Shown: positions 24,452-54,077, numbered from the stretch's first letter. The stretch is DNA of 64,000 bases from Dolomitihabitans soli (GCF_022213955.1 NZ_JAKNTW010000033.1:1-64000); one strand, 5' to 3'. The notes: generated from the letters alone by a model not told the origin. Numbers and translations: made by a program.

Positions 24452-24454
24452 CGA

Positions 24455-24482
24455 GAACTTTGTGGTCATAGTCGGCGTCCAA
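24455..24482 (+). promoter_or_regulatory. ECF-sigma-type promoter of the second kinase gene
   Basis: GAACTT (24455) and GTCCAA (24477) are separated by 16 bases, matching the first kinase promoter in both hexamers and spacing. It lies immediately after the first kinase stop, so the second gene probably has its own start site rather than depending on read-through. Confidence 0.6.
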
Positions 24483-24514
24483 CACCCCGACGACCGACGC
24501 CTGGGGGATGACCG

Positions 24515-31086: not shown

Positions 31087-31121
31087 TCCCCGCCTGACCA
31101 CTCACCCCCAGGAGAGACACC

Positions 31122-32420: not shown

Positions 32421-32430
32421 GGCGTTGCGA

Positions 32431-34136: not shown

Positions 34137-34169
34137 CACGCGCTTCGACTCCCCTGACTTGGAGGCGCA

Positions 34170-37139
34170 ATGTCCCTTCGGCGACCCCTATGGCCGGCCG
34201 TCCTCTCTCTCGTGTCCCTGGTGGCTGCACTGGCCGCGGTGCCCGCGCAGGCGGCGGCCGAATTCCCGTTCCGCGACCCCGGCCTGCCGCTCGCGCAGCG
34301 GATCGACGACCTGCTCGGGCGGCTGACGCTCGACGAGAAGATCTCGCTGCTGCACCAGTACCAGCCGCCGATCGAGCGGCTGGGGATCGGTCTGTTCAAG
34401 ACCGGAACGGAGGCTCTGCACGGCGTCGGCTGGTCGACTGACTACGACAATTCCGGAAATGTCGTGACGGCTAACGGGACGGTGTTCCCGCAGGCGGTCG
34501 GCCTGGCCAGCACCTGGAACCCCGGGCTCATCAAGCGGGTCGGCTCGGCCGTCGGCGACGAGGCCAGAGGATACAACTCGACCAATCCCAGGGTCTGGGG
34601 CCTGAACCTGTGGGCTCCCGTGGTCAACCTGCTGCGCGACCCCCGCTGGGGCCGCAACGAGGAGGGCTACTCCGAGGACCCGCACCTGACCGGCGCGATC
34701 TCCACCGCGTACGGCAAGGGCATGATGGGCGACGATCCCGACCACCTCAAGTCGGCCCCGGTGCTCAAGCACTACCTCGCGAACAACAACGAGATCCGCC
34801 GCGACACCAGCTCCGCCAACCTGCGGCCCAGGGTGCTGCACGAGTACGACGAGGCCGCGTTCAAACCGGCGATCACCGCCGACGCCGCCACCGGCGTGAT
34901 GACGGCCTACAACCTGGTCAACGGGCGGCCGATGACGGCGCACGCCGATCTCGACGACGTCGTGCGGACCTGGACCGGCAAGACGCTGATGAACGTCACC
35001 GACGCCACCGCGCCGAACAACCTCGTCGGCTCCCAGGCGTACTATCCGGACCTTGCCGAGGCCGACGCCGCCACCCTGAAGGCCGGGAACGACAGCTTCA
35101 CCACCGACAACACCGACGCGGCCCCCACCACCACCGCGATCAAGACCGCGCTGGCCAGGGGCCTGCTCGCCGAATCCGACGTGGACACCGCCGTCGAGCA
35201 CATCCTGAGCGTCAGGTTCCGGCTCGGCGAGTTCGATCCGGGCGGCGGGCCGTACGGGAAGATCACCAAGGACGTGATCGACAGCCCGGCGCACCGGCGG
35301 CTGGCCAGGGAGACCGCCGCCGAGGCGATGGTGCTGCTCAAGAACGCGGGCGGGGCCCTGCCGCTGGACGCCGCCAAGGCGAAGAAGGTCGCGGTCATCG
35401 GCCCGCTGGCGGACACCGTCTACACCGACTGGTACTCCGGCGGCCTGCCGTACAAGGTCACTCCGCGGGAGGGGATCAAGGCGCGGCTCGGTCACGGTGC
35501 GAGTGTCACCGGCACCGAGGGCGTGGACAGGATCGCGCTCAAGGACGTGGCCAGCGGGAAGTACGTCACGGCGGGCACGGGCGGGGGCGGGCCGTTGAAG
35601 GTGAGCGCGTCCACGGCGGGCGCGACCGAGCAGTTCGACGTCTTCGACTGGGGTCAGGGCGTGCTGACCCTGCGCAGCGTGGCCAACGGCAGGTTCGTCG
35701 GCTACAACTGGTCGGCCTTCGCGAACGACCAGGTCCAGCCCAACGGCTGGTTCGTCATGCAGCAGTTCAAGCTGGAACGGCAGGACGACGGCAGCTACGC
35801 CGCCCGCTACGTCGGCTATGAGAAGGCGTTCGACTGGGCGGGCCCGAACCACTACCTGACCGTCGGCGCCGACGGCGCCCTCGCCCTCGGCTCGCCCACC
35901 GCCGCCGGGGCCGCCCGCTTCACCAAGGAGGTCGTCAGCGGCGGCGCCGAGACCGCCGCCAAGGCCGCGACCGGCGCCGACGCCGCGATCGTGGTGGTCG
36001 GCAGCATGCCGTTCATCAACGGCCGCGAGGACCACGACCGCACGAGCACGGCGCTGGCCGAGGGCCAGTCCGAACTGATCAAGGCGGTCCGGCGGGCCAA
36101 CCCCAACACCGTCGTGGTCGTGCAGAACAGCTACCCGACCACGCTCACCTGGGAGCAGGGAGCCGTCCCGGCGCTCCTGTGGAGCACCCACGCGGGCGCC
36201 GAGACCGGAAACGCGCTGGCCGACGTCCTGTTCGGCGACCGCGACCCCGGCGGCCGGCTCACCCAGACCTGGTACCGGTCGGACGCCGAACTCCCCGACA
36301 TCCTCGACTACGACATCGTCAAGACCGGCCGCACCTACCTCTACTACAAGGGCGACCCCCTCTACGCCTTCGGCCACGGCCTCTCGTACACCACCTTCAG
36401 GTACGGCCGGCTGAGCCTCAGCTCTCCGAGGATCGGCGAGGACGGCACGGTCACGGCGAGCGTCGAGGTCACCAACACCGGCAGGCGGTCCGGCAGCGAG
36501 GTGGTCCAGCTCTACGGCCGCCAGCGCACCTCACGCGACCAGCTGCCGCTCAAGCAACTCCGCGCGTTCGAGAAGGTCACCCTGAAACCGGGCGAGTCCC
36601 GCACCGTACGGCTGGCGGTCAAGGCCGCCGACCTCGCCCACTGGGACGTCACCCGGGGCCGCTGGGTGGTCGAGTCCGCCACCCACGACCTGATGGCCGG
36701 CGCCTCGGCCGCGGACATCAGGCAGCGGGCCACCGTCGCGGTCGACGGTGACCGGATCCCCGCCCGCGACCTCGGGAAGGACACCCGTGCCGTCGACTTC
36801 GACGACTACGCGGGCATCGACCTGGTGGACGAGTCGAAGGCGCGCGGCGACGCGGTCGGGGCGGGCGCGGGGGACTGGGTCGAGTTCGCCGACGCCCGGC
36901 TCGACGCGGGCGTCTTCACCGCGAAGGTCTCCCGCGCGGCCGCGGGCGAGGCCACGGTCCAGATCCGGCTCGGCGACCCGGTGAAGGGACGGCTGCTCGG
37001 CACGGCCAAGGTCGCCTCGACCGGCGACAAGTACACCTACACCACCACGACCGCCGCCCTGAGCGGGGCGCGCGGCCGGCACGACGTCTACCTGGTCTTC
37101 ACCGGAGACCTGCGGATCTCGTCCTTCTCCCTGAGGTGA
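34170..37139 (+). CDS. Secreted glycoside hydrolase family 3 enzyme with inserted and C-terminal accessory domains
   Basis: 989 residues, TTGGAGG before the ATG. Sec signal about 1-29 (LSLVSLVAALAAVPAQAAA). GH3 barrel about 35-330: the nucleophile is probably Asp278 in MNVTDATAPNN, and LKHYLANNNE holds the substrate-binding KH. The second GH3 domain is split by an insertion at about 450-585 (VDRIALKDVASGKYVTA... FDVFDWGQGVLTLRSVANGRFVGYN), which looks like a fascin/ricin-type beta-trefoil. A fibronectin III-like domain is at about 750-830 and a CBM6/35-like domain at about 870-989. Beta-xylosidase or beta-glucosidase activity is expected. The same plan without a signal peptide is found at 54078. 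Confidence 0.9.
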   Translation: MSLRRPLWPAVLSLVSLVAALAAVPAQAAAEFPFRDPGLPLAQRIDDLLGRLTLDEKISLLHQYQPPIERLGIGLFKTGTEALHGVGWSTDYDNSGNVVTANGTVFPQAVGLASTWNPGLIKRVGSAVGDEARGYNSTNPRVWGLNLWAPVVNLLRDPRWGRNEEGYSEDPHLTGAISTAYGKGMMGDDPDHLKSAPVLKHYLANNNEIRRDTSSANLRPRVLHEYDEAAFKPAITADAATGVMTAYNLVNGRPMTAHADLDDVVRTWTGKTLMNVTDATAPNNLVGSQAYYPDLAEADAATLKAGNDSFTTDNTDAAPTTTAIKTALARGLLAESDVDTAVEHILSVRFRLGEFDPGGGPYGKITKDVIDSPAHRRLARETAAEAMVLLKNAGGALPLDAAKAKKVAVIGPLADTVYTDWYSGGLPYKVTPREGIKARLGHGASVTGTEGVDRIALKDVASGKYVTAGTGGGGPLKVSASTAGATEQFDVFDWGQGVLTLRSVANGRFVGYNWSAFANDQVQPNGWFVMQQFKLERQDDGSYAARYVGYEKAFDWAGPNHYLTVGADGALALGSPTAAGAARFTKEVVSGGAETAAKAATGADAAIVVVGSMPFINGREDHDRTSTALAEGQSELIKAVRRANPNTVVVVQNSYPTTLTWEQGAVPALLWSTHAGAETGNALADVLFGDRDPGGRLTQTWYRSDAELPDILDYDIVKTGRTYLYYKGDPLYAFGHGLSYTTFRYGRLSLSSPRIGEDGTVTASVEVTNTGRRSGSEVVQLYGRQRTSRDQLPLKQLRAFEKVTLKPGESRTVRLAVKAADLAHWDVTRGRWVVESATHDLMAGASAADIRQRATVAVDGDRIPARDLGKDTRAVDFDDYAGIDLVDESKARGDAVGAGAGDWVEFADARLDAGVFTAKVSRAAAGEATVQIRLGDPVKGRLLGTAKVASTGDKYTYTTTTAALSGARGRHDVYLVFTGDLRISSFSLR

Positions 37140-41484: not shown

Positions 41485-41808
41485 TCAGCCGCACTCGAAG
41501 TCGAGGAGCACCTCGGGCTCGACGATGCCCGCGAACGCCGCCGTCAGCACCTCGCGGTGGTCGAGGTCGACCTGATGGGCCGACTGCTCGAAGGTGGTGA
41601 TGGCCTGTGCCGTGTCCTCCGCTTCGATGGCGTAGATCATCAGCGGGCCGTCCGAGGTGTGGAGCAGATGCACGTGCTCGTGCCGTACCCCCTCCTGCAG
41701 GAGAGTCGTCAGAAACTCATCGCGGCGGGGACCGGAGACGGTGCCGAACCACTCTCTCAGCCGGTCCGCCTGATCCGGTTTCACCTTGCTGACCATCACG
41801 CGAAGCAT
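41485..41808 (-). CDS. DUF6176-like small protein
   Basis: 107 residues from the ATG at 41808, 13 bases inside the end of the peptidase gene. MVSKVKPDQADRLREWFGTV, EGVRHEHVHLLHTSDGPLMIYAIEAED and HQVDLDHREVL match DUF6176 (dimeric alpha/beta-barrel style) as I recall it. The function is unknown. Ferredoxin-like small folds of this kind sometimes act as monooxygenases or binding proteins. The overlap makes it the last gene of the RiPP-type unit. Confidence 0.65.
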   Translation of the reverse strand: MLRVMVSKVKPDQADRLREWFGTVSGPRRDEFLTTLLQEGVRHEHVHLLHTSDGPLMIYAIEAEDTAQAITTFEQSAHQVDLDHREVLTAAFAGIVEPEVLLDFECG

Positions 41809-43343
41809 CGGGAACCTTTCTTGTCGTCGATCCGGTCGATCCGGTCGAGCCAGGAGAAGAACCGGGGGAACACCCGTCTCGCGGCGTAGTCGGTGAGCAT
41901 GCCGTGGCCCTCGTCCTCGATCCCGACCCACTCGGAGCCGGGCGGCAGGTCGCCGAGGTGGGCGTGGACCGCCTCGGCGGGGATGCGGGGGTCCTTCTCG
42001 CCGTGCGCCACGAAATGCGGCACCTGGGCGAAGGCGACCTCGGGCGCGAACCGATCGGACGCCACCCGCAGGAAGGCCCGGACCTGGTCGTGGTCGGATC
42101 CGTCCAGGTCGGACGAGCGCAGAAAGCCGCAGATCACGAACACGCCGCGCACCTCGGGGGCGATCCTGGCGGTCCGGGCCGCCAGGTAGCCGCCGTAGCT
42201 GACCCCGCCGACCACCACCGGCCCGGTCCCCAGCTGCCGCAGCACGCTACGCACGTCCTCGGCGTCGTGCACGCCGTACCGTTCGGGGGCGGGGGGACGG
42301 AGCGCCGGGTCGAGCACGCCGCTCCCGCGCAGGTTCGGCTGGACGACCCGCCAGCCGGCCAGCGCCAGGGACTCGGCCAGAGGTGACCAGGTCGCCAGGT
42401 TCGCGCCGTTCGGGCCGCCGTGGAGCAGCAGCACGGTGCCGCGAGGGTCGCCGTGCGGGTCGCGCACGATGCAGGGGAGCGGGCAGTTCGGCCCCGCCAG
42501 CACGGTCGCGCGGGGCGGCGGGGGCGCGTCGCCGGCGGGCGGATCCGGCAGCAGCCGTACCCGCCGTCCCGCGCGGAGGTCCGCGACGGGCACGAGGTGC
42601 AGGCGGCGTGGCTGCTCGCCGGAGGTCCAGCTCAGTCCGGCGAGCTCGCCCTCGGCCCGGACGTCGCCCACGACCACCCCGGCGGTCTCGACCAGCCGGC
42701 GTCGCGCCCCGGAACGCACGTCCCAGGCGTACGGCGTGCGGCCCGGCCACGACTCCACCACCAGGACGAGTTCGTCTTCCGACAACCACGGCCCGATCGA
42801 CGTCACCGGGCCGTCCCAGTGGGTGGTTCCGCCGCCGTCCGCGCAGACGACGCGGCGCGCGGAACCCTGGGTGAGCAGGATCGCGACCCGGTCGTCCCGG
42901 AACGAGTTCGGCGCGACGGCTTGGACGGCGGCGCGCGGCGACAGCGCGACCCCGCTGAGGGAGGGATGTGTCAGCGCCCGCTCATGAGGTGTGGCGCGCG
43001 AAACGATCTGAGCAGGTCCGATGCCTTCCGCCGGTGCGGTGAGCGGGATCTCGCGGCTCCGGGCCCGCTCACCGGCGAGGTCGTCGAACACCTCGGAGAC
43101 CAGGTGCTCTCCCGACCAGTCAGGCCGGCAGTGCCACTGTGTTCCCGCGGTGATCCGGGTCCATCGATCACCGGTGAACGCGGCGAGCTGGCGGCCCGAC
43201 CAGGCGTCCGTGCTCACCACCGGACCGGCGGGGGTGAGCGCGAACGCCGGCTGCGTCCCGTCGAGCTGGGCCCGCCTGAAGGGGTCGGGCAGACCGGCGG
43301 TGATCTGCCGCGGCCGGTCCGGCAGCGAAGCGATCTGTGGCAT
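41796..43343 (-). CDS. Prolyl-oligopeptidase-like serine peptidase (S9 family)
   Basis: 515 residues, AAGGAGAG before the ATG. N-terminal beta-propeller about 1-270, then an alpha/beta hydrolase domain about 275-505. Catalytic Ser is in GGVSYGGY, Asp in AHGEKDPR and His in EDEGHGM; LLLHGGPNG is the oxyanion loop. No signal peptide is seen. In a peptide-modification locus it is the best candidate for removing the leader of the modified precursor before or during export. The alternative is a self-protective or general oligopeptidase. Confidence 0.85.
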   Translation of the reverse strand: MPQIASLPDRPRQITAGLPDPFRRAQLDGTQPAFALTPAGPVVSTDAWSGRQLAAFTGDRWTRITAGTQWHCRPDWSGEHLVSEVFDDLAGERARSREIPLTAPAEGIGPAQIVSRATPHERALTHPSLSGVALSPRAAVQAVAPNSFRDDRVAILLTQGSARRVVCADGGGTTHWDGPVTSIGPWLSEDELVLVVESWPGRTPYAWDVRSGARRRLVETAGVVVGDVRAEGELAGLSWTSGEQPRRLHLVPVADLRAGRRVRLLPDPPAGDAPPPPRATVLAGPNCPLPCIVRDPHGDPRGTVLLLHGGPNGANLATWSPLAESLALAGWRVVQPNLRGSGVLDPALRPPAPERYGVHDAEDVRSVLRQLGTGPVVVGGVSYGGYLAARTARIAPEVRGVFVICGFLRSSDLDGSDHDQVRAFLRVASDRFAPEVAFAQVPHFVAHGEKDPRIPAEAVHAHLGDLPPGSEWVGIEDEGHGMLTDYAARRVFPRFFSWLDRIDRIDDKKGSRCFA

Positions 43344-43369
43344 GGTCTCTCCTTGATCGCGGCGCGGGG

Positions 43370-44077
43370 CTAGGCCGGCGCGTACCGCTTGGCCCGCAGC
43401 ACGACCGGCACGACCCGATCGCCGATGTGCAGGCTCACCTGGTCGCCCGGCTTGTGGCTCTCCACCCAGAAGTCCAGGTCGTCCAGGCTGTCGAAGAGGA
43501 AGTCGTCGGCGGCGCGGATGATGTCCCCCGCGCGCACCCCGGCGAGATCCGCGGGCGCTCCGAGGGCCACGTCCTGCACCAGCATGCCCTGGCCGCGGAC
43601 CGCTCCGATGGGGATCACGCCGAGCTCGGTCGCGTGCATGGTGTGGTAGCTCTTCGGGGTGCCGTCCAGGTAGTCGGCGAGCAGGTCCAGGAAGTGGTCC
43701 CAGTGGTGACGGAAGCCGTCGTGTTCGAACCTGCCGGGGCCGTCGGCGGGGAAGCCGTCCTGCTGCAGGGTCAGCCGGGTGTGCCCGTCGCCGTGGTCGG
43801 ACAGCTCGAAGACCATCCGGATGTCGGCCTCCAGGGCGACCAGGCCGACCACCAGCTCCAGCCGCTCGTACCGCTCCAGGACGTCGATCCGCCCGGAGAA
43901 GACGACCGGCTTGCGGGCGCCGGCGTCGTACATCCAGCAGAAGGCGGCTCCGGGCCGCTCCGGCATGATGGCGCCCACCACGCCCAGCCAGTGCTCGGCC
44001 GCGTCGGTGTCGAACAAGGTCTGCCAGACCTTCTCCCTGGAATACCGCAGAACACGTTCGTAACTGTTGCTCAACAT
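43370..44077 (-). CDS. SRPBCC-domain protein fused to a PDZ domain
   Basis: 235 residues, CAAGGAG before the ATG. Residues 1-140 (SNSYERVLRYSREKVWQTLFDTDAAEHWLG... FRHHWDHFLDLLADYL) are an AHSA1/SRPBCC fold, a hydrophobic-ligand cavity also used by cyclases and aromatases. Residues about 150-235 (GVIPIGAVRGQGMLVQDVALGAPADLAGVRAGDIIRAADDF) are a PDZ domain, which binds C-terminal peptide tails. In this locus a PDZ next to a ligand cavity suggests a peptide-handling or maturation role, as inference only. It lies three bases after the exporter gene. Confidence 0.75.
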   Translation of the reverse strand: MLSNSYERVLRYSREKVWQTLFDTDAAEHWLGVVGAIMPERPGAAFCWMYDAGARKPVVFSGRIDVLERYERLELVVGLVALEADIRMVFELSDHGDGHTRLTLQQDGFPADGPGRFEHDGFRHHWDHFLDLLADYLDGTPKSYHTMHATELGVIPIGAVRGQGMLVQDVALGAPADLAGVRAGDIIRAADDFLFDSLDDLDFWVESHKPGDQVSLHIGDRVVPVVLRAKRYAPA

Positions 44078-44080
44078 CGC

Positions 44081-45388
44081 TTACTCCTTGGTGTCGGTTT
44101 CGGTCTGACTCTGGTCGAGCAGTTGGTTGACCCGGGCGCGGGTGATCGTGAAGGCGGCCAGTACGGCGAGCAGCAACAGGATCAGACCGGCGACCACGAA
44201 GGAGGCGCGCAGCCCGGCGGTCGACGCCAGGACGCCGCCGAGCAGTGCGCCGAACGGCATGCCGCCGTAGGTGACGAGCCGGTGGACGCCGCTGACCCGG
44301 CCCAGCAGGTGATCGGGGGTGCCCGCCTGCCTCAGCGACATCTGGTTGACGTTCCAGACCGCGGCGGCGAATCCGGCCAGGATCTCGCCGGCGCCGGCGA
44401 TCCACACGTTCGGCGCGACGGCGGTGATCAGGCAGGCGAGACCGGCTCCGGTCAACGCCAGTTTCAGGCTGAGCGCGCTGCCGAACCACCGGTTGAACCG
44501 GCCGACCTGCGCGGCTCCGTAGAGCGCGCCGAACGAGCCCACCGCGAGCAGCAGGCTGAAGCCGATCGCGCCCTGGCCCAGCTCCTGCTGCGCGAACAGG
44601 ACGAAGATCGCGCTCTGCGCCAGGCACGCCACGTTGAACAGGCCCGCGATGCCGGTGATCGCCCGCAACATCGGTTGCCGCCACAGCCAGGCCACGCCCT
44701 CGGTGAGGGAGCTCCGCATGCTGGTCCCGCCGTACACGTTCCGGGACACGTGGTAGTCGCCGCGCATCCTGCGGATCAGGAACGCGCTGAGCACGAAGGA
44801 CAGCGCGTCGGCCACGAACGGCAACGGCCGGAACGCGCTGAACAGCAGGCCGCCCAGCGGAGGCCCGACGAAGGACTCGGTGGTGGTTCGCGTGCCCACG
44901 AGCCAGGAGTTGGCCTTCTGGATCTGCTCGGGGTGGGTGGAGACCACCTTGGGGAGCACGGCTGAGCTGGCGCTGTCGAACATGGTGTCGGCGATGGCGA
45001 GCAGGAAGCCCACCACCATCAGTAGCAGGATGCTCGCCCAGCCCATCAGGACGGCCGCCGCCAGAGCCATCGTGAGACCCGCCCTGACCAGGTCGGACAC
45101 CCACATGGCGCGCTTACGGTCCCACCGGTCGGCCATCACCCCCGCGGGCAGGGCGAACACCAGCCAGGGCACCCGGCTGGCGAGGACCACCCCGGCGACC
45201 ACCATGGGGTCGCTGGACAGCGAGGCGGCCAGCAACGGAAGGGCCGCGGAGGAGATCCCGCTGCCGAGGAACGACACCCCCGACGCGCCCCAGAGGGCGG
45301 GAAAGTCCGGTGCGAAGGACCCGAAGAACGAGCGACGGGGGGGCCCGGGAGGATCCGGCGCCACGCGACTCTCGGTGACGTTCGTCAT
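44081..45388 (-). CDS. MFS exporter
   Basis: 435 residues. The ATG at 45388 is preferred over a GTG three bases upstream because GGGAGG then has proper spacing; the ATG overlaps the stop of the 51-residue ORF (TGATG). Twelve membrane segments are inferred. DRWDRKRAMWVSD is the loop 2-3 motif and the type is DHA3 (macrolide efflux-like). It is the probable exporter and self-resistance protein for the locus's peptide product. Confidence 0.88.
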   Translation of the reverse strand: MTNVTESRVAPDPPGPPRRSFFGSFAPDFPALWGASGVSFLGSGISSAALPLLAASLSSDPMVVAGVVLASRVPWLVFALPAGVMADRWDRKRAMWVSDLVRAGLTMALAAAVLMGWASILLLMVVGFLLAIADTMFDSASSAVLPKVVSTHPEQIQKANSWLVGTRTTTESFVGPPLGGLLFSAFRPLPFVADALSFVLSAFLIRRMRGDYHVSRNVYGGTSMRSSLTEGVAWLWRQPMLRAITGIAGLFNVACLAQSAIFVLFAQQELGQGAIGFSLLLAVGSFGALYGAAQVGRFNRWFGSALSLKLALTGAGLACLITAVAPNVWIAGAGEILAGFAAAVWNVNQMSLRQAGTPDHLLGRVSGVHRLVTYGGMPFGALLGGVLASTAGLRASFVVAGLILLLLAVLAAFTITRARVNQLLDQSQTETDTKE

Positions 45389-45543
45389 CACATCCTCCCT
45401 TCGGCCGGCGCGGCTGGAGATCCGGCGGATGCCCGGCTCGGCGAGTGCCGGTCGCCGAGCTCGCGCCGGGGAGGGCAGGACCGGTCCGGGACGGGCGACG
45501 TGCCCATGCTCCGGAACTTGAGCTGTCGGTGCGTGTACGGCAT
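45388..45543 (-). CDS. 51-residue ORF inside the RiPP-type locus
   Basis: Starts MPYTHRQLKFRSMGTSPVPD with GGAAGG seven bases upstream. Later residues are Arg, Ser, Pro and Ala rich, with one Cys (DRSCPP). Its stop overlaps the exporter start and its start is 16 bases after the previous gene, so it sits snugly in the transcript. It is unrecognised. It could be a second precursor, a small partner of the 399-residue protein, or a coupling leader for the exporter. Confidence 0.45.
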   Translation of the reverse strand: MPYTHRQLKFRSMGTSPVPDRSCPPRRELGDRHSPSRASAGSPAAPAEGRM

Positions 45544-45559
45544 GTTCGTCCTTCCGGGA

Positions 45560-46759
45560 TCAATGGGTTGCCGGGTCGAGATCGCGGCACAGGAGCCGGG
45601 CGCGGGCCGCGTCGTCCGGCCGGCCCAGCTGTTCCGCGCACACCGCCGCCGCGTTGGCCGCCATCGCCCCGCGCAGCGTGCCGGAACCGGCGGCCTGCCA
45701 GAAGACGCCGTGTGCCGCCTCCCAGTCGTCTCGGGCCGCCAGGTAGTGCCCGATCGCGTAGAGCGGTTCCGGGTCGACCGGATCCAGCGTCAGCAGTTGC
45801 TCCACGGCGTCGGCTGGTGCGCTCGCCTTACCTGTGAGGGTGTCCAGCTTGAGGTGGGCCTCGAGCACGAGCCCACGGTTCTCCCGCTGGTAGTGGGTCC
45901 GCACCGGGTCGTCGACGAGCCCCGCCAGGGCGTCGTCGTGCCGCAGGGCCTCCCGCATGTGGCCGACCACCGTCTCGTGATCGCCTCCGGACAGCTCGTG
46001 CAACGCGGCCGCGCGGTGATGGCGGCTGCGCACGAGGTGCGCCAGCCACGCCGGCTCCGCGTGCAGGTCGTCCGCGGCCTTGCCCGCCACGCCGAGCCAC
46101 CGGCCCGCGGCCGTCGGATCGCGGGTGTCGCGGGACTTGGCGGAGACGAGCTGCAGCGCCGCGAGGGTGCGCAGCGCCGGCCGTACGGCGTGCTCGGCCA
46201 GCCAGGCGAAGATCTTGGCGGGCACCGGCGACTTCCGGTTGAGCTGGAAGGCGGCCCGGCCCGCTTCGTAGGCCAGGTGCTGGCGCAGCGGATCGCCGCT
46301 GGGGAACAGGGTGGGCAGGAGGCCGACGACGTGACGGTGGAAGCCGAGCTGCGTCAGCAGCATGACGACCACGATCCTGTCGGGGACCGGGAGCTCCTGC
46401 CAGTGGTCGAGGAACCGCACGAGTGCCCGCCACCGCGGGGTGCGCAGGTGCTCCGGCAGCTGCTCGGGCCGGCCGCACTGGTGTTCATGGGCCCTGGCCT
46501 GGGCGACGACCTGGTAGCGGGAGCTGGTCACCGAGACGGTGCTGAACCAGCTCGGCGCCTCCAGCTCGTCCTCACCCGTCAACATGCGGGCGAGGTGGAC
46601 GGCGTGCAGGGAGCGCAGCGGAGCGGGGTCCGCGTCGGACAGATCGATCCACGCCGACCAGCGGCGGGCGAGCTCGGCCACGTCGAGCGTCTCCACCTCG
46701 GGAAACCGCAGTTCCCCGAACGACTGGGACTCGTCGCGACGGTAGGCGAATGTGAGCAC
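45560..46759 (-). CDS. Unknown 399-residue helical-repeat protein of the RiPP-type locus
   Basis: GTG start with TAGGAG six bases upstream; nine bases after the YcaO stop. Opens LTFAYRRDESQSFGELRFPEVETLDVAELARRW, then mostly alpha-helical with Ala/Leu-rich repeats of about 34-40 residues (AGRWLGVAGKAADDLHAEP; LEAHLKLDTLTGK; DWEAAHGVFWQAAG; AMAANAAAVCAEQLGRPDDAARA) like TPR units. I see no catalytic motif. Position between YcaO and exporter suggests a scaffold or precursor-recognition protein for the YcaO, which has no other partner here. The family is not recognised. Confidence 0.7.
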   Translation of the reverse strand: MLTFAYRRDESQSFGELRFPEVETLDVAELARRWSAWIDLSDADPAPLRSLHAVHLARMLTGEDELEAPSWFSTVSVTSSRYQVVAQARAHEHQCGRPEQLPEHLRTPRWRALVRFLDHWQELPVPDRIVVVMLLTQLGFHRHVVGLLPTLFPSGDPLRQHLAYEAGRAAFQLNRKSPVPAKIFAWLAEHAVRPALRTLAALQLVSAKSRDTRDPTAAGRWLGVAGKAADDLHAEPAWLAHLVRSRHHRAAALHELSGGDHETVVGHMREALRHDDALAGLVDDPVRTHYQRENRGLVLEAHLKLDTLTGKASAPADAVEQLLTLDPVDPEPLYAIGHYLAARDDWEAAHGVFWQAAGSGTLRGAMAANAAAVCAEQLGRPDDAARARLLCRDLDPATH

Positions 46760-46768
46760 GGGGAACTC

Positions 46769-47821
46769 CTAGGCGAGGGGGCAGGGCAGGCCGGCGGGTG
46801 GGGTGAGCGGCTCGACGACCTCATAGCCATGGCAGACGACGCGGTGCACCACGTACTCGCCGATCGTGGGCAACGCCACGTCCACCGGCTGGCGGCCGAA
46901 CAACTCCTCCGCCGCGTCCACGAGGGTCATCAGGTCGGCTGACGTGCTTCTGGCGGTGCCGCTGCCGACGGTACGGGCGGCGACGAACCGCAGGTGGGCC
47001 TCGCTGGCGGCCACGGCGGCCAGTCCTTTGGCGTGGTCCAGACTCGGGGCCGACCCCTGAGGGCGTGCCGAGCCGAGCGCGAGCCGGGCCGCGGTGGCCT
47101 CGAACACCGCGTGCCGTACGGCCTCGGCGGTGTCGCCACGGGCCGCCGCGCCGCAGGTGAGCACGGTGCCGTCGAGGCGGTGCAGGAACGCCACGACCAC
47201 GTCGGGACGAACGCCTGCCACGCGTAGGGTGCGCAACGCGACGTGGCGCTCGCGCAGCGAGTCGAGGAACGCGGGCGGCAGTGTCGCGGTGTGCAGATGA
47301 TCAAGGTCCTCGAACAGGATGTCGCCGGTGCGCCACCCGCTCACCAGCACGTGCCGCTCGATCACCTCCCGCAGGGCCGTCTCCTGTGCCTGCCGGTGGC
47401 CGAGCCCGGCGGCGCTGCCGGCCGAGGTCTGCACGCACCACCGGACCTCACCCTGCGGCGGGTCCCAGCCGAGGAAGACCGCCTGCGCCGGCACCGCGAT
47501 CTCGGCGCCGTCGCGCAGGCCGTGCCCGAGCACCCAGCTCGTCGGGGGAGAGCCCGCCCCCAGCCAGGCGGCGGGCTCGATCCGGGGGCGGTCTCCGGGG
47601 TCCGCCAGTACGGGCAGCACCCCGGCGGCGGACACGTGGCTCATCCGCTCCACGTACTCGCCGGTCGCGCGTAGTGCCGCACGCCCGGCATCGGCGTCGC
47701 AGGCACCGCCGCTCGTTCCGTCGTCGCCGGTCACCCAGGCGACATGGACGGAACCGTTGATCAGTGGGCGCACCGTGGGGCGCGGCATGCTCGTCGCCTG
47801 CGAAGGGCTGTTCTGTCCCAT
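46769..47821 (-). CDS. YcaO-family ATP-dependent peptide cyclodehydratase/amidine synthase
   Basis: 350 residues from the ATG at 47821 (GAGGTGAAG upstream). YcaO proteins use ATP to activate peptide backbone amides, giving azolines, thioamides or amidines. ATP-site signatures are present: Glu55 and Glu58-Arg59 in GEYVERMS, TSAGSAAGLGHRQAQETAL (about 132-150), and Glu152/Glu155-Arg156 in REVIERHVL. The C-terminus ends GLPCPLA, short of the PxPxP tail of azoline-forming members. It is shorter than most (about 400-450). No E1/ThiF-like, dehydrogenase or TfuA gene is nearby, which points to a stand-alone type as in bottromycin pathways. Confidence 0.88.
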   Translation of the reverse strand: MGQNSPSQATSMPRPTVRPLINGSVHVAWVTGDDGTSGGACDADAGRAALRATGEYVERMSHVSAAGVLPVLADPGDRPRIEPAAWLGAGSPPTSWVLGHGLRDGAEIAVPAQAVFLGWDPPQGEVRWCVQTSAGSAAGLGHRQAQETALREVIERHVLVSGWRTGDILFEDLDHLHTATLPPAFLDSLRERHVALRTLRVAGVRPDVVVAFLHRLDGTVLTCGAAARGDTAEAVRHAVFEATAARLALGSARPQGSAPSLDHAKGLAAVAASEAHLRFVAARTVGSGTARSTSADLMTLVDAAEELFGRQPVDVALPTIGEYVVHRVVCHGYEVVEPLTPPAGLPCPLA

Positions 47822-47881
47822 GTTCTTCACCTCGATTCCGGCTGTGATTTCGGTTGTGATTTCTGCTGTTCGGACGATTGG

Positions 47882-47915
47882 CGTGGGGGCGTTGGCTGGG
47901 CGACCCGCCCCCACG
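47882..47915 (-). terminator. Hairpin between precursor and YcaO genes (attenuator-like)
   Basis: CGTGGGGGCG and CGCCCCCACG form a perfect 10-bp stem with a 14-base loop, 63 bases after the precursor stop and 60 before the YcaO start. There is no T-tract. Partial terminators here are common in RiPP operons, raising precursor over enzyme transcript. Confidence 0.65.
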
Positions 47916-47977
47916 ACGTCAGCGGCTCCGCTCCTCCCGGTCGCAGGGCGATGAGCGATCCACGTCGTGTGCCGGGC

Positions 47978-48058
47978 CTAGTAGGACTTGGTCCCGAGCA
48001 CGTCGAACTCCTGCGCCTCTTCGTCGACCTGACCGAGGTCCCAGATGTTGGAATCCAT
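47978..48058 (-). CDS. RiPP precursor peptide, 26 residues
   Basis: ATG at 48058 with a strong GGGGAGG eight bases upstream in an A-rich leader. The peptide begins MDSNIWDLGQ, has an acidic middle (VDEEAQ), and ends EFDVLGTKSY followed by TAG. It holds two Thr/Ser near the C-terminus (Thr23, Ser25), one near the N-terminus (Ser3) and no Cys. The acidic leader-like part, the short polar C-terminal tail, and the position first in a YcaO transcript make it the precursor candidate. The core is probably the C-terminal LGTKSY region, though N-terminal core with a C-terminal follower, as in bottromycin, cannot be excluded. Confidence 0.75.
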   Translation of the reverse strand: MDSNIWDLGQVDEEAQEFDVLGTKSY

Positions 48059-48544: not shown

Positions 48545-48584
48545 GCCGTACCCCGATGCGAAAAGCCTGCGAAAGGGGTACGGC
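48545..48584 (-). terminator. Terminator after the second sugar-importer operon
   Basis: GCCGTACCCC (48545) and GGGGTACGGC (48575-48584) form a perfect 10-bp stem with a 20-base loop, 12 bases after the stop of the minus-strand permease gene. It separates that operon from the RiPP-type locus. Confidence 0.75.
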
Positions 48585-48596
48585 GCGGCGAAACGG

Positions 48597-49493
48597 TCAG
48601 CCCTTCACGGCGCCGATGACGACTCCCTTGGTGAAGTGCTTCTGCACGAAGGGATAGATGAACAACACCGGGACCAACGCGATGACGACGATCGCCATCT
48701 GGATCGCCAGGCTCGGCGGCAGCGCCTGCCCGACCGTGGTGACGCCGCCCTGACCGGCGTAGATGGACTGGCCCTGGAGGACGTACTGGCGCAGCACGAG
48801 TTGCAGCGGCCACTTGGCGTTGTCGTTGATGTAGAGGACCGCGTTGAAGAAGGCGTTCCAGTAGCCGACGGCGTAGAAGAGCCCGATGACGGCGATGACG
48901 CCCTTGGACATCGGCAGCACGATCCGCCACATGATGGTGTACTCGGTGGCCCCGTCGATCCGTGCGCTGTCGGTCACCTCCTGCGGGATGTTCATGAAGA
49001 ACGCCCGCATGACCACCAGGTTGAAGGCCCACACGGCGGTCGGCAGGATCAGCGACCAGTAGCTGTCCACCAGGCCGAGCGAGCTGACCACCAGATAACT
49101 CGGGATCATGCCGGGCACGAACAGGAAGGTCAGCAGGATCATGAACAGGATCGGCCGGTGCAGCACCGACCCGGTCCGGGACAGCCCGTAGGCCGCCAGT
49201 ACGGTCACCACCAGGCTGAGCGCGGTGCCCACGGCGGTGACGCCCAGGCTGACCAGCACCGCCCGGGTCACCACGCCACCGGAGAAGAGTTCCCGGTAGG
49301 CGGCCAGGGACAGCCCGCCGGGCCGGGTGACCAGGCCACCCGCCTCGGTCACGGCCTCCTGCGTGGAGAAGCTGGTCAGCACCACCATGTAGATCGGAAA
49401 CAGGACGCTGACCACGATGAGCGTCAGGAGCACGCCTTTGGCGGTACGGCCCGCGGGGCTCGGCCGCTCCATCCAGGCCGGTGAAGTCGTCAT
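48597..49493 (-). CDS. ABC sugar importer permease (MalG/LplC-like)
   Basis: 298 residues from the ATG at 49493 (AAGGAG upstream). Six membrane segments, EAA loop DSARIDGATEYTIMWRIVLPMSKG and closing VQKHFTKGVVIGAVKG. Last gene of the importer operon, 132 bases after the LplB-like permease. That gap contains a CCCCTGCC/GGCGGGG hairpin (about 49514-49532) and a second ribosome-like AGGGGAGGAATTC, but no gene. Confidence 0.92.
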   Translation of the reverse strand: MTTSPAWMERPSPAGRTAKGVLLTLIVVSVLFPIYMVVLTSFSTQEAVTEAGGLVTRPGGLSLAAYRELFSGGVVTRAVLVSLGVTAVGTALSLVVTVLAAYGLSRTGSVLHRPILFMILLTFLFVPGMIPSYLVVSSLGLVDSYWSLILPTAVWAFNLVVMRAFFMNIPQEVTDSARIDGATEYTIMWRIVLPMSKGVIAVIGLFYAVGYWNAFFNAVLYINDNAKWPLQLVLRQYVLQGQSIYAGQGGVTTVGQALPPSLAIQMAIVVIALVPVLFIYPFVQKHFTKGVVIGAVKG

Positions 49494-49625
49494 CGAAACT
49501 CCTTGAGCGTGGATGCCCCTGCCTCCAGGCGGGGGAGGAGTCATCCTCGTCGACGGGCGGTTGGCGGTGGAGCAGGAATCCGCACGGGCGACCGTGGAAT
49601 CTCCCTGTTCACGAAGGGGAGGAAT

Positions 49626-50663
49626 TCAAGATTTCTTGTAGATGCCCTGCTCGCCGAATCGATGGGCGACCTTGTTGGCTATCACGATCAGAATGAGGCC
49701 GACGATGCCCTTGACCAGGCCGGCCGCCGCGCCGTAGCTCCACTCGCCGGTGAGCAGCGTCCGCCAGTAGACGAAGGTGTCGAGCACCTCCGCGGCGTCC
49801 CTGCCGACCGCGTCGCGTTGCAGGAAGAACTGCTCGAAGCCGACGTTGAGCGCGTCGCCGAGGCGGAGGATCAGCAACAGGATGATCACCGGGCGCAGGC
49901 CGGGCAGCGTGATGTGCAGCATCCGCTGCCACCGGGTCGCGCCGTCGACCGCCGCCGCCTCGTACAGGTGCGGGTTGATCGCGGCCAGGGCGGCCAGGAA
50001 GATGATCGTTCCCCAGCCGGCGTCCTTCCAGATGGTCTCGGCGGTGACCAGCAGGATGAACGTGTCGGGGTTCGTCATGAGGTCGACGCCCTGGAAACCG
50101 TTGTCGCGCAGCACCTGGGACAGCAGCCCGGCGCCGCCGAACATCTGCTGGAACAGCGTGACGACCAGCACCCAGGAGAAGAAGTGCGGCATGTAGACGA
50201 TGCTCTGCACGACCAGCCGCACCCGGCGGTTCATGATGCTGTCCAGCAGGATCGCCAGCATGATCGGGATCGGGAAGTAGAAGATGAGCTGGAAGACCAT
50301 GATGGTCAGCGTGTTGATGGTCGCGTCCCAGAAGCTGGCGTCGAGCATCAGCCACTGGAAGTTCGAGAACCCGACCCACGGGCTGTCCGCGATGCCGACG
50401 TAGGGCGAGTAGTCCTGGAAGGCGATGACGCTGCCGAGGATCGGCACGTAGTAGAAGATCACCAGCAGGGCGATGGCCGGCAGGGTCATCATCAGCAGCG
50501 GCCAGTCGCGTCTCAGCCTGGCCCGCAGCGGCGACCGATTCTTCCGACCAGCGTTCTTCCGACTTGCGCGAACGGGTCGCTTGGGGACATCGTTTGTAGT
50601 GCCGGTCCCGGCGGGTGAGGTCAGGTCACCCGCCGGGCCGGTCTTCGAGCGACTGCTAGGCAC
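49626..50663 (-). CDS. ABC sugar importer permease (LplB-like)
   Basis: 345 residues from a GTG that overlaps the binding-protein stop. A basic cytoplasmic N-terminus of about 55 residues precedes six membrane segments. The EAA loop is EAAAVDGATRWQRMLHITLPGLRP. VIAFQDYSPYVGIADSPWVGFSNF and the C-terminal VANKVAHRFGEQGIYKKS type are typical of LplB permeases, which take up complex plant or host oligosaccharides with a large binding protein. Confidence 0.92.
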   Translation of the reverse strand: MPSSRSKTGPAGDLTSPAGTGTTNDVPKRPVRASRKNAGRKNRSPLRARLRRDWPLLMMTLPAIALLVIFYYVPILGSVIAFQDYSPYVGIADSPWVGFSNFQWLMLDASFWDATINTLTIMVFQLIFYFPIPIMLAILLDSIMNRRVRLVVQSIVYMPHFFSWVLVVTLFQQMFGGAGLLSQVLRDNGFQGVDLMTNPDTFILLVTAETIWKDAGWGTIIFLAALAAINPHLYEAAAVDGATRWQRMLHITLPGLRPVIILLLILRLGDALNVGFEQFFLQRDAVGRDAAEVLDTFVYWRTLLTGEWSYGAAAGLVKGIVGLILIVIANKVAHRFGEQGIYKKS

Positions 50664-52338
50664 GGCCGTTTTCCTGGAGAACCTTCAGGAAGAAGTCGCG
50701 TCCCTCGTTGCCGCCGTCGCGCTGCCACTCCGCGACGATGTCCTTGGCGTCGCTGACGGGACGGCGACCACGCATGATGTCGGTGAACTTGTCCTCGGTG
50801 GGGACCTGCAGGCCCGACAGCTTGGCGGGCCGCTGGACCCGGATGCCCGAGGTCGGCTGCGTCTGGATGTACTTGAAGCTGTCGTTCTGCCACTGGGCGC
50901 AGGCTGTGACCGCGTCCGGGTAGGCCACCCAGTCGGTCACCAGCGGCCGGCCGCCGAGGAAGATGTACGACTCGGCGGCCTCCTTCAGGCCGAGCTCGGT
51001 CCTGTCGGGCGCGCCGTTCTCGTCCCGGGTGAAGTGCTTGCCCTCCACGCCGTAGATGTAGAGCTCGTACTCCTTGGTGCCGAACGGCGCGGCGGTGAAG
51101 TTGAGGATCGAGAGGATCTCCTCGACCTTCGCCTTGGGCGTCCCCTTCTTGATGAAGGTGAAGATCCCCGCGGCGTTGTTGTGGTAAGTGATCGGGGTGC
51201 CGCCGTCGTGCGCGAACAGTGGCATCACGCCGATGTTGAAGTCGGGGTTCTTCGGGCGCTGCTGGTCCAGCAAGGGCTTCCAGCCGCCGATGCCGTCGCG
51301 GAAGACGGTGGTCTGGCCCGCGGCGAACAGGTCCTTCTCATTGGCGCCCTTGCTGCTCACCACGTTGGGGTGGATCAGCTCCTCTTCGAAGAGCTTGCGC
51401 ATGAACTCCAGCATCAGCACGTATTCGGGCGTCTCGTACTTGTGGACGAGCTTGCCGCCCTCCAGCCGCCACTCCTGCGGGATGTTGAAGATGGGCCAGG
51501 CCATCTCGTGGATGTCGCCGAACGCCCAGCGCTTCGCCTTGGCGTCGGTGATCGTCTTGCCCAGTTGGTAGAGCTCCTCGGCGTTCTTCGGGAGCGGCCA
51601 GCCGTTCTCGTCGAACAGGTCCTTGCGGTAGAGCAAGCTCAAGGGGTACGGCTCCGTCGGGAAGGGGACGGCCATGAGCTTGCCGTTCCACACCGACCAC
51701 TGCCAGGCGGGGGTGGGCAGGTTGGCCAGCAGCGGCCACGACTTGACCTTGTCGCCCTGCAGATAGGGGGTGAGGTCCTCGAAGGCCTTGTCGACGGCGA
51801 CGTTGAAGTCGGCCATCTTCTCGATCTCCCATTGCGGGATGACCATGATGTCGGGCAGGTCGCCCGAGGCCATCCGGGCGATGGCCTTGTCGGCGTAGGT
51901 GGTGCCGTCGGCGATCTGGAACTCGACGGTCGCGCCGATCTCGGCGTTGACGGCCTGGAAGAAGGAGTTCTCGTCCAGGGCGGGCGGGATGGGGGCCCAC
52001 AGCGGGGTCATCGCCTTGTAGGAGCCGCCCTTGCCGAGCTTCTGCGGGATGGCCTGCGTCAACGTCGCCGGATATTTCGTGAAACCGCCGCCGTAACCCG
52101 GCACGCCGGGGAGCTTGGACACCGTGCCAGGGATGTCGGGCTTCGCCCCTTCGAAGGGGATGTAGGTCGGGGTGAGAGAGGTCAGCTTGTCACCGGCCGC
52201 CGCGGTCGCGCCGCCGGAGCCGGGGCGCGGGCCGCTCGGAGTGGAGCAGGCGGACAACAGCCCGCCGGCCGCGGTGAGGCCGACCAGACCGAGGAATCCG
52301 CGCCGGCTGGTGGTCGCGCCATCGAGGGGAAGTGTCAC
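50656..52338 (-). CDS. Oligosaccharide-binding lipoprotein (LplA-type, Tat-exported)
   Basis: 560 residues from a GTG with GAAGGGAG upstream. The N-terminus TSRRGFLGLVGLTAAGGLLSAC combines a twin-arginine motif with a lipobox (LSAC), so export folded by Tat and lipid anchoring are likely. The mature part is the long family-1 LplA type (FFQAVNAEIGATVEFQIADGTTY, GDLPDIMVIPQWEIEKM). It pairs with the two permeases downstream. Divergent from the ROK regulator, with a 25-bp operator ahead of it. Confidence 0.92.
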   Translation of the reverse strand: MTLPLDGATTSRRGFLGLVGLTAAGGLLSACSTPSGPRPGSGGATAAAGDKLTSLTPTYIPFEGAKPDIPGTVSKLPGVPGYGGGFTKYPATLTQAIPQKLGKGGSYKAMTPLWAPIPPALDENSFFQAVNAEIGATVEFQIADGTTYADKAIARMASGDLPDIMVIPQWEIEKMADFNVAVDKAFEDLTPYLQGDKVKSWPLLANLPTPAWQWSVWNGKLMAVPFPTEPYPLSLLYRKDLFDENGWPLPKNAEELYQLGKTITDAKAKRWAFGDIHEMAWPIFNIPQEWRLEGGKLVHKYETPEYVLMLEFMRKLFEEELIHPNVVSSKGANEKDLFAAGQTTVFRDGIGGWKPLLDQQRPKNPDFNIGVMPLFAHDGGTPITYHNNAAGIFTFIKKGTPKAKVEEILSILNFTAAPFGTKEYELYIYGVEGKHFTRDENGAPDRTELGLKEAAESYIFLGGRPLVTDWVAYPDAVTACAQWQNDSFKYIQTQPTSGIRVQRPAKLSGLQVPTEDKFTDIMRGRRPVSDAKDIVAEWQRDGGNEGRDFFLKVLQENGRA

Positions 52339-52403
52339 GGCGCGCTCCCTTCGTTCATTCGATCAGACAGGGGGTGTTAGCGGAGGAGGGCTCCGGGGTA
52401 GAG

Positions 52404-52428
52404 TTAGTTCGTCTTTCGACCAAACAAA
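52404..52428 (-). promoter_or_regulatory. ROK/XylR-type operator of the importer operon
   Basis: TTAGTTCG, nine bases, CAAACAAA. Read on the minus strand it is TTTGTT-N13-AACTAA, the same as the site at 28762. It lies 66 bases upstream of the binding protein gene and 152 before the ROK gene, so it could serve both. Confidence 0.6.
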
Positions 52429-52579
52429 TTAGTCGAGGGTGACCGTCGCCACAAGGGATCGCCCACCGCGACTCAACAAGGGCGGGGTCACAGATTGGTG
52501 AAGGGACCGCCGGAATGACCCTCGGCCGCGTGATGCGGCATGATGGGCCCAGCCTGGCCGACCGGGAACGGGGCTGACC

Positions 52580-53806
52580 TTGATCACTTCTACCACGGGC
52601 CCACAACCCGCGGACTTCACCGACGTCAGGGCTACGAACCTGGCCGTCGTGCTGAGGTTCGTCAGGGAGCACGCGCCGTGCTCGCGCGCGGACATCGCCG
52701 CCTCGACCGGGCTCAACAAGGCGACGGTCTCCAGCCTCGTCGCCGATCTCATCGATCGGCGGCTGGTCCGCGAGACCGGCCTGACCGAGAACCGGGTCGG
52801 CCGTCCGGCGACCATGCTCGTCCTCGACGGCTCGCCGTACGCCGCGGCCGGCATCGAGGTGAACGTCGACTACCTCACGGCGGTCGCCGTCGACCTGTCG
52901 GGGCAGCGGCTGCTGTCCTGGCGGCGGTCCTTCCCCGGGGCGACCGCCACGGCGAGCCAGGCGGTCGCGGCGGTCGCCGCCCTCGCCCGCCGCGCGGTCA
53001 ACCGCATGGTGAAGGAGGAGCGGCAGGTCCTCGGGCTGGCCATCGCCGTACCCGGCCTGATCGACGTCGACGGGCGGGTGCGCATCGCGCCCAACCTCGG
53101 CTGGCACGACGTCGACCTGACCGGTGACCTCACCAAGGCGCTGCGCGACCCCGGCTTCCCGGTCCAGGTCGACAACGACGCCAACCTCGGAGCCCTGGCC
53201 GAACATCGTTTCGGGCCGTTGGGCGGGGTCGACAACCTGCTCTACCTGACCGGCGAGGTCGGCGTCGGAGCCGGCGTGATCCTCGACGGGCGGCTGCGGC
53301 GCGGCGGCAGGGGATACAGCGGGGAGATCGGCCACATCCAGATCGATCCCGCCGGCCCCGTCTGCAACTGCGGCCGGACCGGGTGCCTGGAAGCGGTCGC
53401 CGGGATCGGTGCCGTGATCGGCAAGGTGGCGTCCGGCACGCCTGGTGCGCCCGTCTCACCCGCCGAGGTGGAGCCCGAGATCGACGAGGTCGTACGGCTG
53501 GCCAGGAACGGCGACACCGCCACGCTGGCCGCGCTGGCCGAGATCGGCGGAAACCTCGGCAAGGGCGTCGCCATCCTGGCGAACGTGCTCAACCCCGAGG
53601 TGGTGGTCCTCGGCGGCTACTACGTGCCGCTCGCCCCCTGGGTGCTGCCCGCGGCCCAGGCCGAGGTACGGCGGCGCACGATCGCGCCCGAGGCGGGCGG
53701 CTGCCGCATCGTGGCCTCCACCCTGGGCTACGGCGCGGCGGCCCTCGGCGGCGCGGCCCGGGTCCTCGACTCGGTCGACTCGGGACGGCTGCCCCACCGG
53801 ACCTGA
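52580..53806 (+). CDS. ROK-family transcriptional repressor (XylR-like)
   Basis: 408 residues from a TTG start with ACGGGG upstream. N-terminal winged helix at about 14-70 (LAVVLRFVREHAPCSRADIAASTGLNKATVSSLVADLIDRRLV). The ROK sugar-kinase-like domain follows, with VDNDANLGALAEH and the zinc motif CNCGRTGCLE in HIQIDPAGPVCNCG. The zinc His and Cys are intact; a catalytic kinase role is not expected for the HTH-bearing group. It probably releases DNA when xylose or a related sugar binds, controlling the divergent importer and, by the shared site, the GH31 operon. Confidence 0.92.
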   Translation: MITSTTGPQPADFTDVRATNLAVVLRFVREHAPCSRADIAASTGLNKATVSSLVADLIDRRLVRETGLTENRVGRPATMLVLDGSPYAAAGIEVNVDYLTAVAVDLSGQRLLSWRRSFPGATATASQAVAAVAALARRAVNRMVKEERQVLGLAIAVPGLIDVDGRVRIAPNLGWHDVDLTGDLTKALRDPGFPVQVDNDANLGALAEHRFGPLGGVDNLLYLTGEVGVGAGVILDGRLRRGGRGYSGEIGHIQIDPAGPVCNCGRTGCLEAVAGIGAVIGKVASGTPGAPVSPAEVEPEIDEVVRLARNGDTATLAALAEIGGNLGKGVAILANVLNPEVVVLGGYYVPLAPWVLPAAQAEVRRRTIAPEAGGCRIVASTLGYGAAALGGAARVLDSVDSGRLPHRT

Positions 53807-54003
53807 CCCCACCGGACCTGACCCCGCCGCGCCGGGAGCCGCCGGAACCGCTGGGCCGCGTCGTGCGTCCCGGCGGGCCACGGGGTCCGATCGCCGGTCA
53901 CGGGGCGGGGTGAAAATTTCATCCGGTCTTGACCGGACCTGGCTGAGGCGGCAAAGTGCATAGAACCCACGAATTAACACCGTCGTAATCTTCTCGTACA
54001 TCT

Positions 54004-54057
54004 TCGAAGCGCTTCGATCGAGGCGCTCCTTTTCGCAGGTTCGTCGAAGCGCTTCGA
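54004..54057 (+). promoter_or_regulatory. Two identical LacI-type operators
   Basis: The perfect 14-bp palindrome TCGAAGCGCTTCGA occurs at 54004-54017 and 54044-54057. Centres are 40 bp apart, close to four helical turns, so a LacI dimer pair or tetramer could bind on one face. They end 21 bases before the GH3 start of the GH3-LacI-GH1 operon. The 197 bases between the ROK gene and the first site hold only the palindrome CCGGTCTTGACCGG (53923) and no gene. Confidence 0.85.
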
Positions 54058-54077
54058 CGTGAAGGATGGTCCCCCCC

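Follow-up and report, generated by a model that had tools for sequence, protein, structure and literature searches.

A 64,000-nucleotide stretch of the Dolomitihabitans soli genome (GCF_022213955.1, NZ_JAKNTW010000033.1:1-64000; hereafter the window, meaning the whole stretch) carries on its minus strand, between positions 41,485 and 48,058, a set of genes assembled around a YcaO enzyme. This locus is most likely an operon of the Streptosporangiaceae for a ribosomally synthesised and post-translationally modified peptide (RiPP), with a very small modified peptide made from a 26-residue precursor as its product, and it represents a genuine and apparently undescribed subfamily of YcaO RiPPs. Among related genomes, the residue at precursor position 23 changes together with the presence of a JmjC_2 hydroxylase gene. 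The simplest reading of these sequences is that residue 23 is the site of YcaO action and must bear a beta-hydroxyl or a thiol group, which Thr and Cys possess natively and Asn would acquire by hydroxylation. The main features are as follows.

47978..48058, minus strand: precursor gene, MDSNIWDLGQVDEEAQEFDVLGTKSY, 26 aa, with the leader motif WDLG...EFDVL and the putative core G-T23-K-S-Y
47882..47915, minus strand: hairpin with a 9-bp GC stem, between the precursor stop and the YcaO start
46769..47821, minus strand: YcaO, 350 aa (PF02624, E 2.1e-22)
45560..46759, minus strand: predicted TPR solenoid protein, 399 aa, adjoining YcaO throughout the group, including its distant member L028
44081..45391, minus strand: MFS exporter, 436 aa (PF05977, E 1.7e-34; MFS_3), syntenic in all close relatives
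43370..44077, minus strand: SRPBCC (AHSA1)-PDZ protein, 235 aa (PF08327 and PF13180), in all close relatives and absent from L028
41796..43343, minus strand: S9 or prolyl-oligopeptidase-like serine hydrolase, 515 aa (PF00561 and PF00326), the proposed leader peptidase

A conserved cassette and its precursor peptide

The gene order precursor-YcaO-TPR-[JmjC]-MFS-SRPBCC/PDZ-S9 is the same in eight genomes (that of the window, L012, L013, L014, L015, L027, L030 and L031). Every close relative belongs to the Streptosporangiaceae, and the named ones are Streptosporangium and Sphaerisporangium. The ninth genome, L028, is distant and has the core only, arranged as precursor-YcaO-TPR-exporter-S9, with identities to the window proteins of 33% for YcaO, 28% overall for the TPR protein and about 29% for the S9 protein. 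The MFS exporter between its TPR and S9 genes has no match to the window MFS protein, and genes for an O-methyltransferase and an FAD oxidase follow. Of the 343 family genomes, 9 were positive in a YcaO profile search (E 1e-15 or better); outside the family, a 395-genome sample of the class yielded no match (E 1e-12), and a plasmid search gave none either. The synteny of the precursor, YcaO and their neighbours agrees with the original prediction, made from the DNA alone, of a compact RiPP locus with a stand-alone YcaO at its centre, and the placement, strand and order that it gave for the genes were all recovered when the eight minus-strand genes were re-read in the sequence and with Pfam. 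The near-continuous overlap that it described does not extend to the precursor-YcaO junction: the most likely start of YcaO is the ATG at 47821 behind AGGTG, not the GTG at 47914, so that about 156 nucleotides, and no overlap, separate the precursor stop from YcaO.

The precursor gene is preceded by a Shine-Dalgarno sequence, GGGGAGGTGA. The original prediction placed a 26-residue precursor ahead of YcaO and held that its absence from homologous loci would count against a RiPP; an open reading frame (ORF) at the same place recurs in 8/8 other genomes. The peptide is nearly invariant across the seven close relatives, reading MEISWDLGQVDEEA[QA]EFDVL[GA]NKSY in six genomes and MEVTWDLGEVDESAEEFDVLGTKSY in L027, and L028 encodes a peptide containing MEFDWDLGVQEDDQDYPVLLCTDYMA. 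The close-relative precursors vary at residue 23 and at the N-terminus, and Lys24 and Ser25 are invariant in all eight genomes of the close group. Constraint is also visible in the last 21 codons, where the close group shows up to 7 synonymous against 0-5 amino-acid codon differences, the synonymous ones being the majority. Short ORFs combining a Shine-Dalgarno sequence, the leader motif and a Tyr-containing tail numbered 9 of 303 in the scanned loci against 0 of 1197 in shuffled sequences, a count that is descriptive because the motif was picked after the peptides were known; they comprise one ORF per scanned YcaO-group locus plus one in L061, a locus described below. The precursor motifs had no match in the literature searched, which was mostly open-access, and earlier detection is possible, for example in the supplementary data of PMC8442711.

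The hairpin between the precursor and YcaO is possibly a partial terminator or an mRNA-stability element, and it may determine how much precursor is made relative to the enzyme; the evidence is suggestive. Its pairing is kept in 84.6% of cells across 8 loci, compared with 32-61% in slid controls, and the three compensatory changes all concern one pair (a C-G/U-A exchange in three genomes). In the window alone the hairpin has a z of -1.1, and an Rfam search returned no match. A conserved short ORF followed by a hairpin before YcaO could form an attenuator, with the ORF as a regulatory leader peptide, with YcaO and the TPR protein modifying a cellular protein, and with no RiPP at all. We regard this explanation as very unlikely, given the sparse distribution of the locus among family and class genomes, the exporter, the peptidase, the coupling of residue 23 to the hydroxylase and the similar peptide of a further TPR locus, all of which fit a specialised metabolite.

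The YcaO protein scores 80.3 bits against PF02624, well within the superfamily (cut-off 25.7), and is 60-67% identical to its close relatives. Among solved structures, phmmer found no relatives of YcaO, and profile matches appeared only at E 0.05-0.1. In the YcaO tree, the group and L028 form their own clade (ultrafast bootstrap (UFB) 97), outside which fall the four other YcaO proteins of the genome and that of Escherichia coli. The original prediction had proposed this phylogeny as a check against the YcaO proteins of ribosomal methylthiolation; it does not place our protein with the E. coli enzyme, although the deep nodes are weak (UFB 38-40). The 10.8-Mb genome has five YcaO genes, the window's included; one belongs to a canonical YcaO-TfuA pair on contig C13 (141331-142990, L071) and three further ones lie on contigs C31, C30 and C11. 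E1-like, TfuA and dehydrogenase genes were all absent from the locus by Pfam, supplemented by NCBIfam for E1-like and SagB/McbC-type dehydrogenase proteins, and the only TfuA gene of the genome lies beside another YcaO, in keeping with the predicted lack of an E1-like or TfuA partner.

Residue 23, the JmjC_2 gene and the proposed chemistry

An additional JmjC_2 (PF08007) gene of 430-490 aa, with conserved metal ligands HxD...H (motifs HWD and GHWH), lies between the TPR and MFS genes of six relatives. Asn23 (..VL-[GA]-N-KSY) occurs with JmjC_2 in 6/6 genomes, Thr23 occurs without it in 2/2 (window and L027), and L028 lacks JmjC_2 and has Cys at the aligned position 23. Fisher's test for six of six versus three of three gives p about 0.012 on the assumption of independent genomes, which does not hold here. 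The two genomes with Thr23 lie on opposite sides of a close-relative tree built from five concatenated proteins (UFB 98), and their placement as sisters was rejected (approximately unbiased test, p 0.016). Residue and gene must therefore have changed jointly at least twice. No hydroxylase remnant was found by blastn in the window spacer. Relocation of the hydroxylase within the window genome was considered and rejected, the sole JmjC protein elsewhere being only 29% identical. JmjC/cupin hydroxylases are known to modify RiPP core residues, and in another RiPP family the arginase and hydroxylase are reported to be missing from those clusters whose precursor has no target residue (PMC12257519).

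In the pathway that we propose, the precursor would comprise two parts, the acidic leader WDLGxVDExxxEFDVL and the roughly five-residue core G-T-K-S-Y. By binding the leader, the TPR protein would offer the core to YcaO, a role played elsewhere by E1-like or RiPP recognition element (RRE) proteins. With ATP, YcaO would activate the amide that precedes residue 23 in the backbone; the side chain of residue 23 would close a five-membered ring, giving a methyl-oxazoline from Thr23 and a thiazoline from the Cys of L028. In the Asn23 relatives, the JmjC_2 oxygenase would first beta-hydroxylate Asn, thereby supplying the missing nucleophile for an oxazoline, and with Thr23 the gene would not be needed, hence its absence. 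Because the window locus has no dehydrogenase, the ring is expected to be an azoline and not an azole. A related logic operates in telomestatin and YM-216391, where P450-hydroxylated Phe feeds phenyl-oxazole formation. The S9-type peptidase would then cut off the leader and the MFS protein would export the product. Export is suggested by family membership, and leader removal by family membership together with the catalytic residues Ser (GxSYGG), Asp (HGxxDxRIP) and His (EGHG), which are kept even in L028; the peptidase start was corrected to the ATG at 43343, giving 515 aa. Taken as a whole, from TPR-presented core to export, this pathway is plausible while falling a little short of probable.

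Several points weigh against it. The comparison covers nine genomes in all and few independent events, and the alignment of L028 at residue 23 depends on a short motif. With L028 as the outgroup the tree is weakly resolved (UFB 49-59), and the uncertain root makes gain and loss of the hydroxylase indistinguishable. The YcaO C-terminus reads LPCPxA in most members, without a clear PxPxP, and in the close relatives QH replaces ER in the first ATP motif. An AlphaFold2 (AF2) model of YcaO reached a predicted local distance difference test (pLDDT) score of 35 and was not used. Moreover, it could be the product, and not the closing of the ring, that requires the hydroxyl group, and the site of YcaO action could be Ser25 or another position.

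The last of these possibilities can be stated as a separate explanation, in which an azoline or another YcaO modification arises at Ser25, or at the Lys-Ser amide, and a hydroxylated or beta-branched residue 23 merely decorates the product. The invariance of Ser25 in 8/8 close genomes speaks for such a site, whereas L028 has Asp there and Cys at position 23, and we judge it unlikely. The original prediction suggested instead a branch of the amidine RiPPs, in which an amine, either a freed N-terminus or Lys24, attacks the YcaO-activated amide as in bottromycin, klebsazolicin and streptamidine. A stand-alone YcaO with no recognised E1-like partner has precedents in bottromycin and streptamidine (PMC8442711), the S9 peptidase could free a new N-terminus, and Lys24 is invariant in the close group. 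However, an amidine leaves unexplained why Asn23 comes with a hydroxylase and Thr23 without one, Lys24 is not retained in L028, and the streptamidine markers AmiB, AmiE and FecBCDE were not seen in the locus, where AmiB was judged by the missing E1-like match. Amidine formation is thus possible, with a rather low probability, and not favoured, since no observation indicated an amidine and the sole site-specific evidence, the pairing of Asn23 with the hydroxylase as against Thr23 or Cys23 without it, better fits cyclodehydration of the residue-23 side chain.

A thioamide RiPP with a sulfur donor acting in trans seems very unlikely. In E. coli, YcaO has a fused TPR domain and thioamidates uL16 with no TfuA dedicated to it (PMC13063428), and the genome of the window does encode one TfuA elsewhere; that TfuA, however, adjoins another YcaO, and the E. 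coli enzyme lies outside the present YcaO group.

The TPR protein, related loci and flanking genes

The 399-residue protein, predicted as a helical-repeat protein without a known identity, is indeed a helical repeat and can now be identified, by profile and predicted fold, as a tetratricopeptide repeat (TPR) solenoid. Pfam gave no match and TPR_hemY matched weakly, while a profile of the protein finds consensus TPR proteins among Protein Data Bank entries. The AF2 model, built from four sequences, is all-helical with a mean pLDDT of 70; residues 1-82 are unreliable, and most ten-residue blocks of 181-390 exceed pLDDT 80. With this model, Foldseek retrieved TPR solenoids (E about 1e-3 to 1e-2), several of which bind peptides. 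No RRE-typical strands are predicted in the model, although the poorly modelled N-terminus could still hold one. We propose that the protein binds the leader as the partner of YcaO. A TPR protein of unknown function also occurs in the ammosamide peptide-scaffold cluster (PMC12424672).

A TPR profile search of the family genomes identified distant TPR genes in six further genomes (E 1e-17 to 1e-56), most of them in RiPP-like clusters that have no YcaO match in the neighbourhood. This lack of YcaO specificity in the TPR protein suggests a leader-reading or scaffold role. L061 (5112-5195; 5219-13901) combines a precursor-like peptide, MGETTTALDVVEDTSEYDVMLLQCECY, with two nitroreductases, an S9 peptidase, two TPR proteins, a MATE transporter and an O-methyltransferase, and the L061/L062 cluster (L062:228-6757) has an FAD halogenase and a ThiF protein further along; it looks like an undescribed RiPP cluster. 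L063 encodes a B12-radical SAM enzyme, three TPR proteins, a MATE transporter and an S9 protein. L064 (10473-14832) and L065 (9338-13439) have two tandem TPR genes and an MFS gene alongside short ORFs whose ends, EEFGVLLAAEYNYQAQ and EEFGTLMSAEYNYMAQ, are both of the form AEYNY(Q/M)AQ; an FAD halogenase is present in L064, and the products are possibly halogenated tyrosine peptides. At L066:7709-15354, genes for ThiF, TPR, cupin/JmjC-like, B12-radical SAM, MFS and P450 proteins stand behind a 55-aa ORF ending ILSYEY. The short ORF MQEIEVADEVVEIYEALNEWEYGL of L067:9718-13928 lies beside ThiF-like (E1-like), S9-like, TPR and MFS genes, the same chassis except that an adenylating enzyme replaces YcaO. 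A further match, L035/G575, a tandem TPR gene with an MFS gene close by and neither YcaO nor a recognisable precursor, was not used as evidence.

The precursor motif test picked up the L061 peptide and did not pick up those of L064, L065 and L067; the shared leader motif is thus firm only within the YcaO group and suggestive beyond it. Tentatively, and with less assurance than the pathway above, the TPR protein might define an undescribed RiPP superfamily, as a free-standing leader reader in place of an RRE or E1-like module. Its short acidic precursors would be marked by the motif E-[FY]-x-V-[LM] and by Tyr in the tail, and its core enzymes would vary (YcaO with or without JmjC in the present group; nitroreductase pair, ThiF, B12-radical SAM or FAD halogenase in further Streptosporangiaceae clusters), usually alongside an MFS or MATE transporter and often an S9 peptidase. 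If this wider TPR family does serve other RiPP enzymes, it would provide a genome-mining handle on clusters that RRE-based tools may miss.

The remaining features of the locus are accessory or mark its limits.

45388..45543, minus strand: 51-aa ORF, probably no gene; its spacer position is that of the JmjC_2 gene in six relatives
41485..41808, minus strand: DUF6176 protein, 107 aa, accessory (PF19673, E 1.2e-12), most likely starting at the ATG at 41808
48546..48583, minus strand: inverted repeat CCGTACCCC...GGGGTACGG, seen in the sequence itself, following the ABC permease gene upstream

The 51-residue ORF had been listed as a gene; it has no homologue in any relative and no Pfam match. A long match to the DUF6176 protein is restricted to L012, L013 and L014 and is not found in every locus. 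The inverted repeat is the probable operon boundary, and the upstream permease gene has no counterpart beside the cassettes of the relatives among the matches listed. Carbohydrate-use genes flank the locus (28822-37139 and 48597-56876), encoding a GH31 enzyme, two GH3-CBM6 enzymes and sugar ABC transporters. The plus strand encodes, at 20936-28000, a neighbouring pair of kinases, each about 1170 aa long and combining nSTAND1 with WD40 propeller domains; they are likely tandem duplicates.

Significance and comparison with known systems

For most YcaO proteins that stand alone, no reaction has been assigned. In the present case, the comparison of genomes points to a residue that is likely modified and to a switch provided by nature, Asn with a hydroxylase or Thr without one, which makes two ideas testable: that beta-hydroxylation feeds YcaO cyclodehydration and that a TPR protein replaces the E1-like or RRE partner. 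A 26-residue precursor with a core of about five residues is also convenient for mass spectrometry.

As originally predicted, the gene set matches no RiPP class among those whose gene sets could be checked. Bottromycin clusters contain an MFS exporter and an alpha/beta-hydrolase, and the bottromycin precursor has an N-terminal core plus a follower. They resemble our locus in the exporter and hydrolase and in having YcaO without an E1-like partner, and differ from it in having two YcaO proteins; we found a single YcaO, a TPR protein and a putative core at the C-terminus, with variation at residue 23 and the N-terminus and no N-terminal core. Linear azol(in)e peptides and cyanobactins share the proposed azoline chemistry, which they carry out with an E1-like protein plus YcaO; in our locus, neither an E1-like/ThiF or Ocin-ThiF partner nor a SagB/McbC-type dehydrogenase was matched by Pfam or NCBIfam. 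Thioamitide clusters are characterised by a TfuA gene adjoining YcaO, and the sole genomic TfuA lies on contig C13.

The streptamidine or ami clusters (Russell et al. 2021, PMC8442711) are alike as actinobacterial stand-alone YcaO systems with a short precursor, a partner without a recognised domain, a peptidase or hydrolase and an exporter. Their precursors have 31-89 aa and motif A or B, and the pathway needs AmiB (TruD-like), the AmiE dehydrogenase and FecBCDE (PMC8442711); membership in this group was rejected on precursor and gene content. The E. coli YcaO of uL16 thioamidation (PMC13063428) similarly works with a TPR domain, although there it is a fused domain and a ribosomal protein serves as substrate, whereas our TPR gene is separate, no TPR is fused to the window YcaO, and the YcaO groups apart with L028, within a tree of weak deep nodes. 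Finally, biphenomycin-type pathways (PbsQ/BpmG, PMC12257519) rely on MNIO and B12-radical SAM chemistry without YcaO, and yet they share with our locus a JmjC/cupin core hydroxylase that is present only with its target residue.

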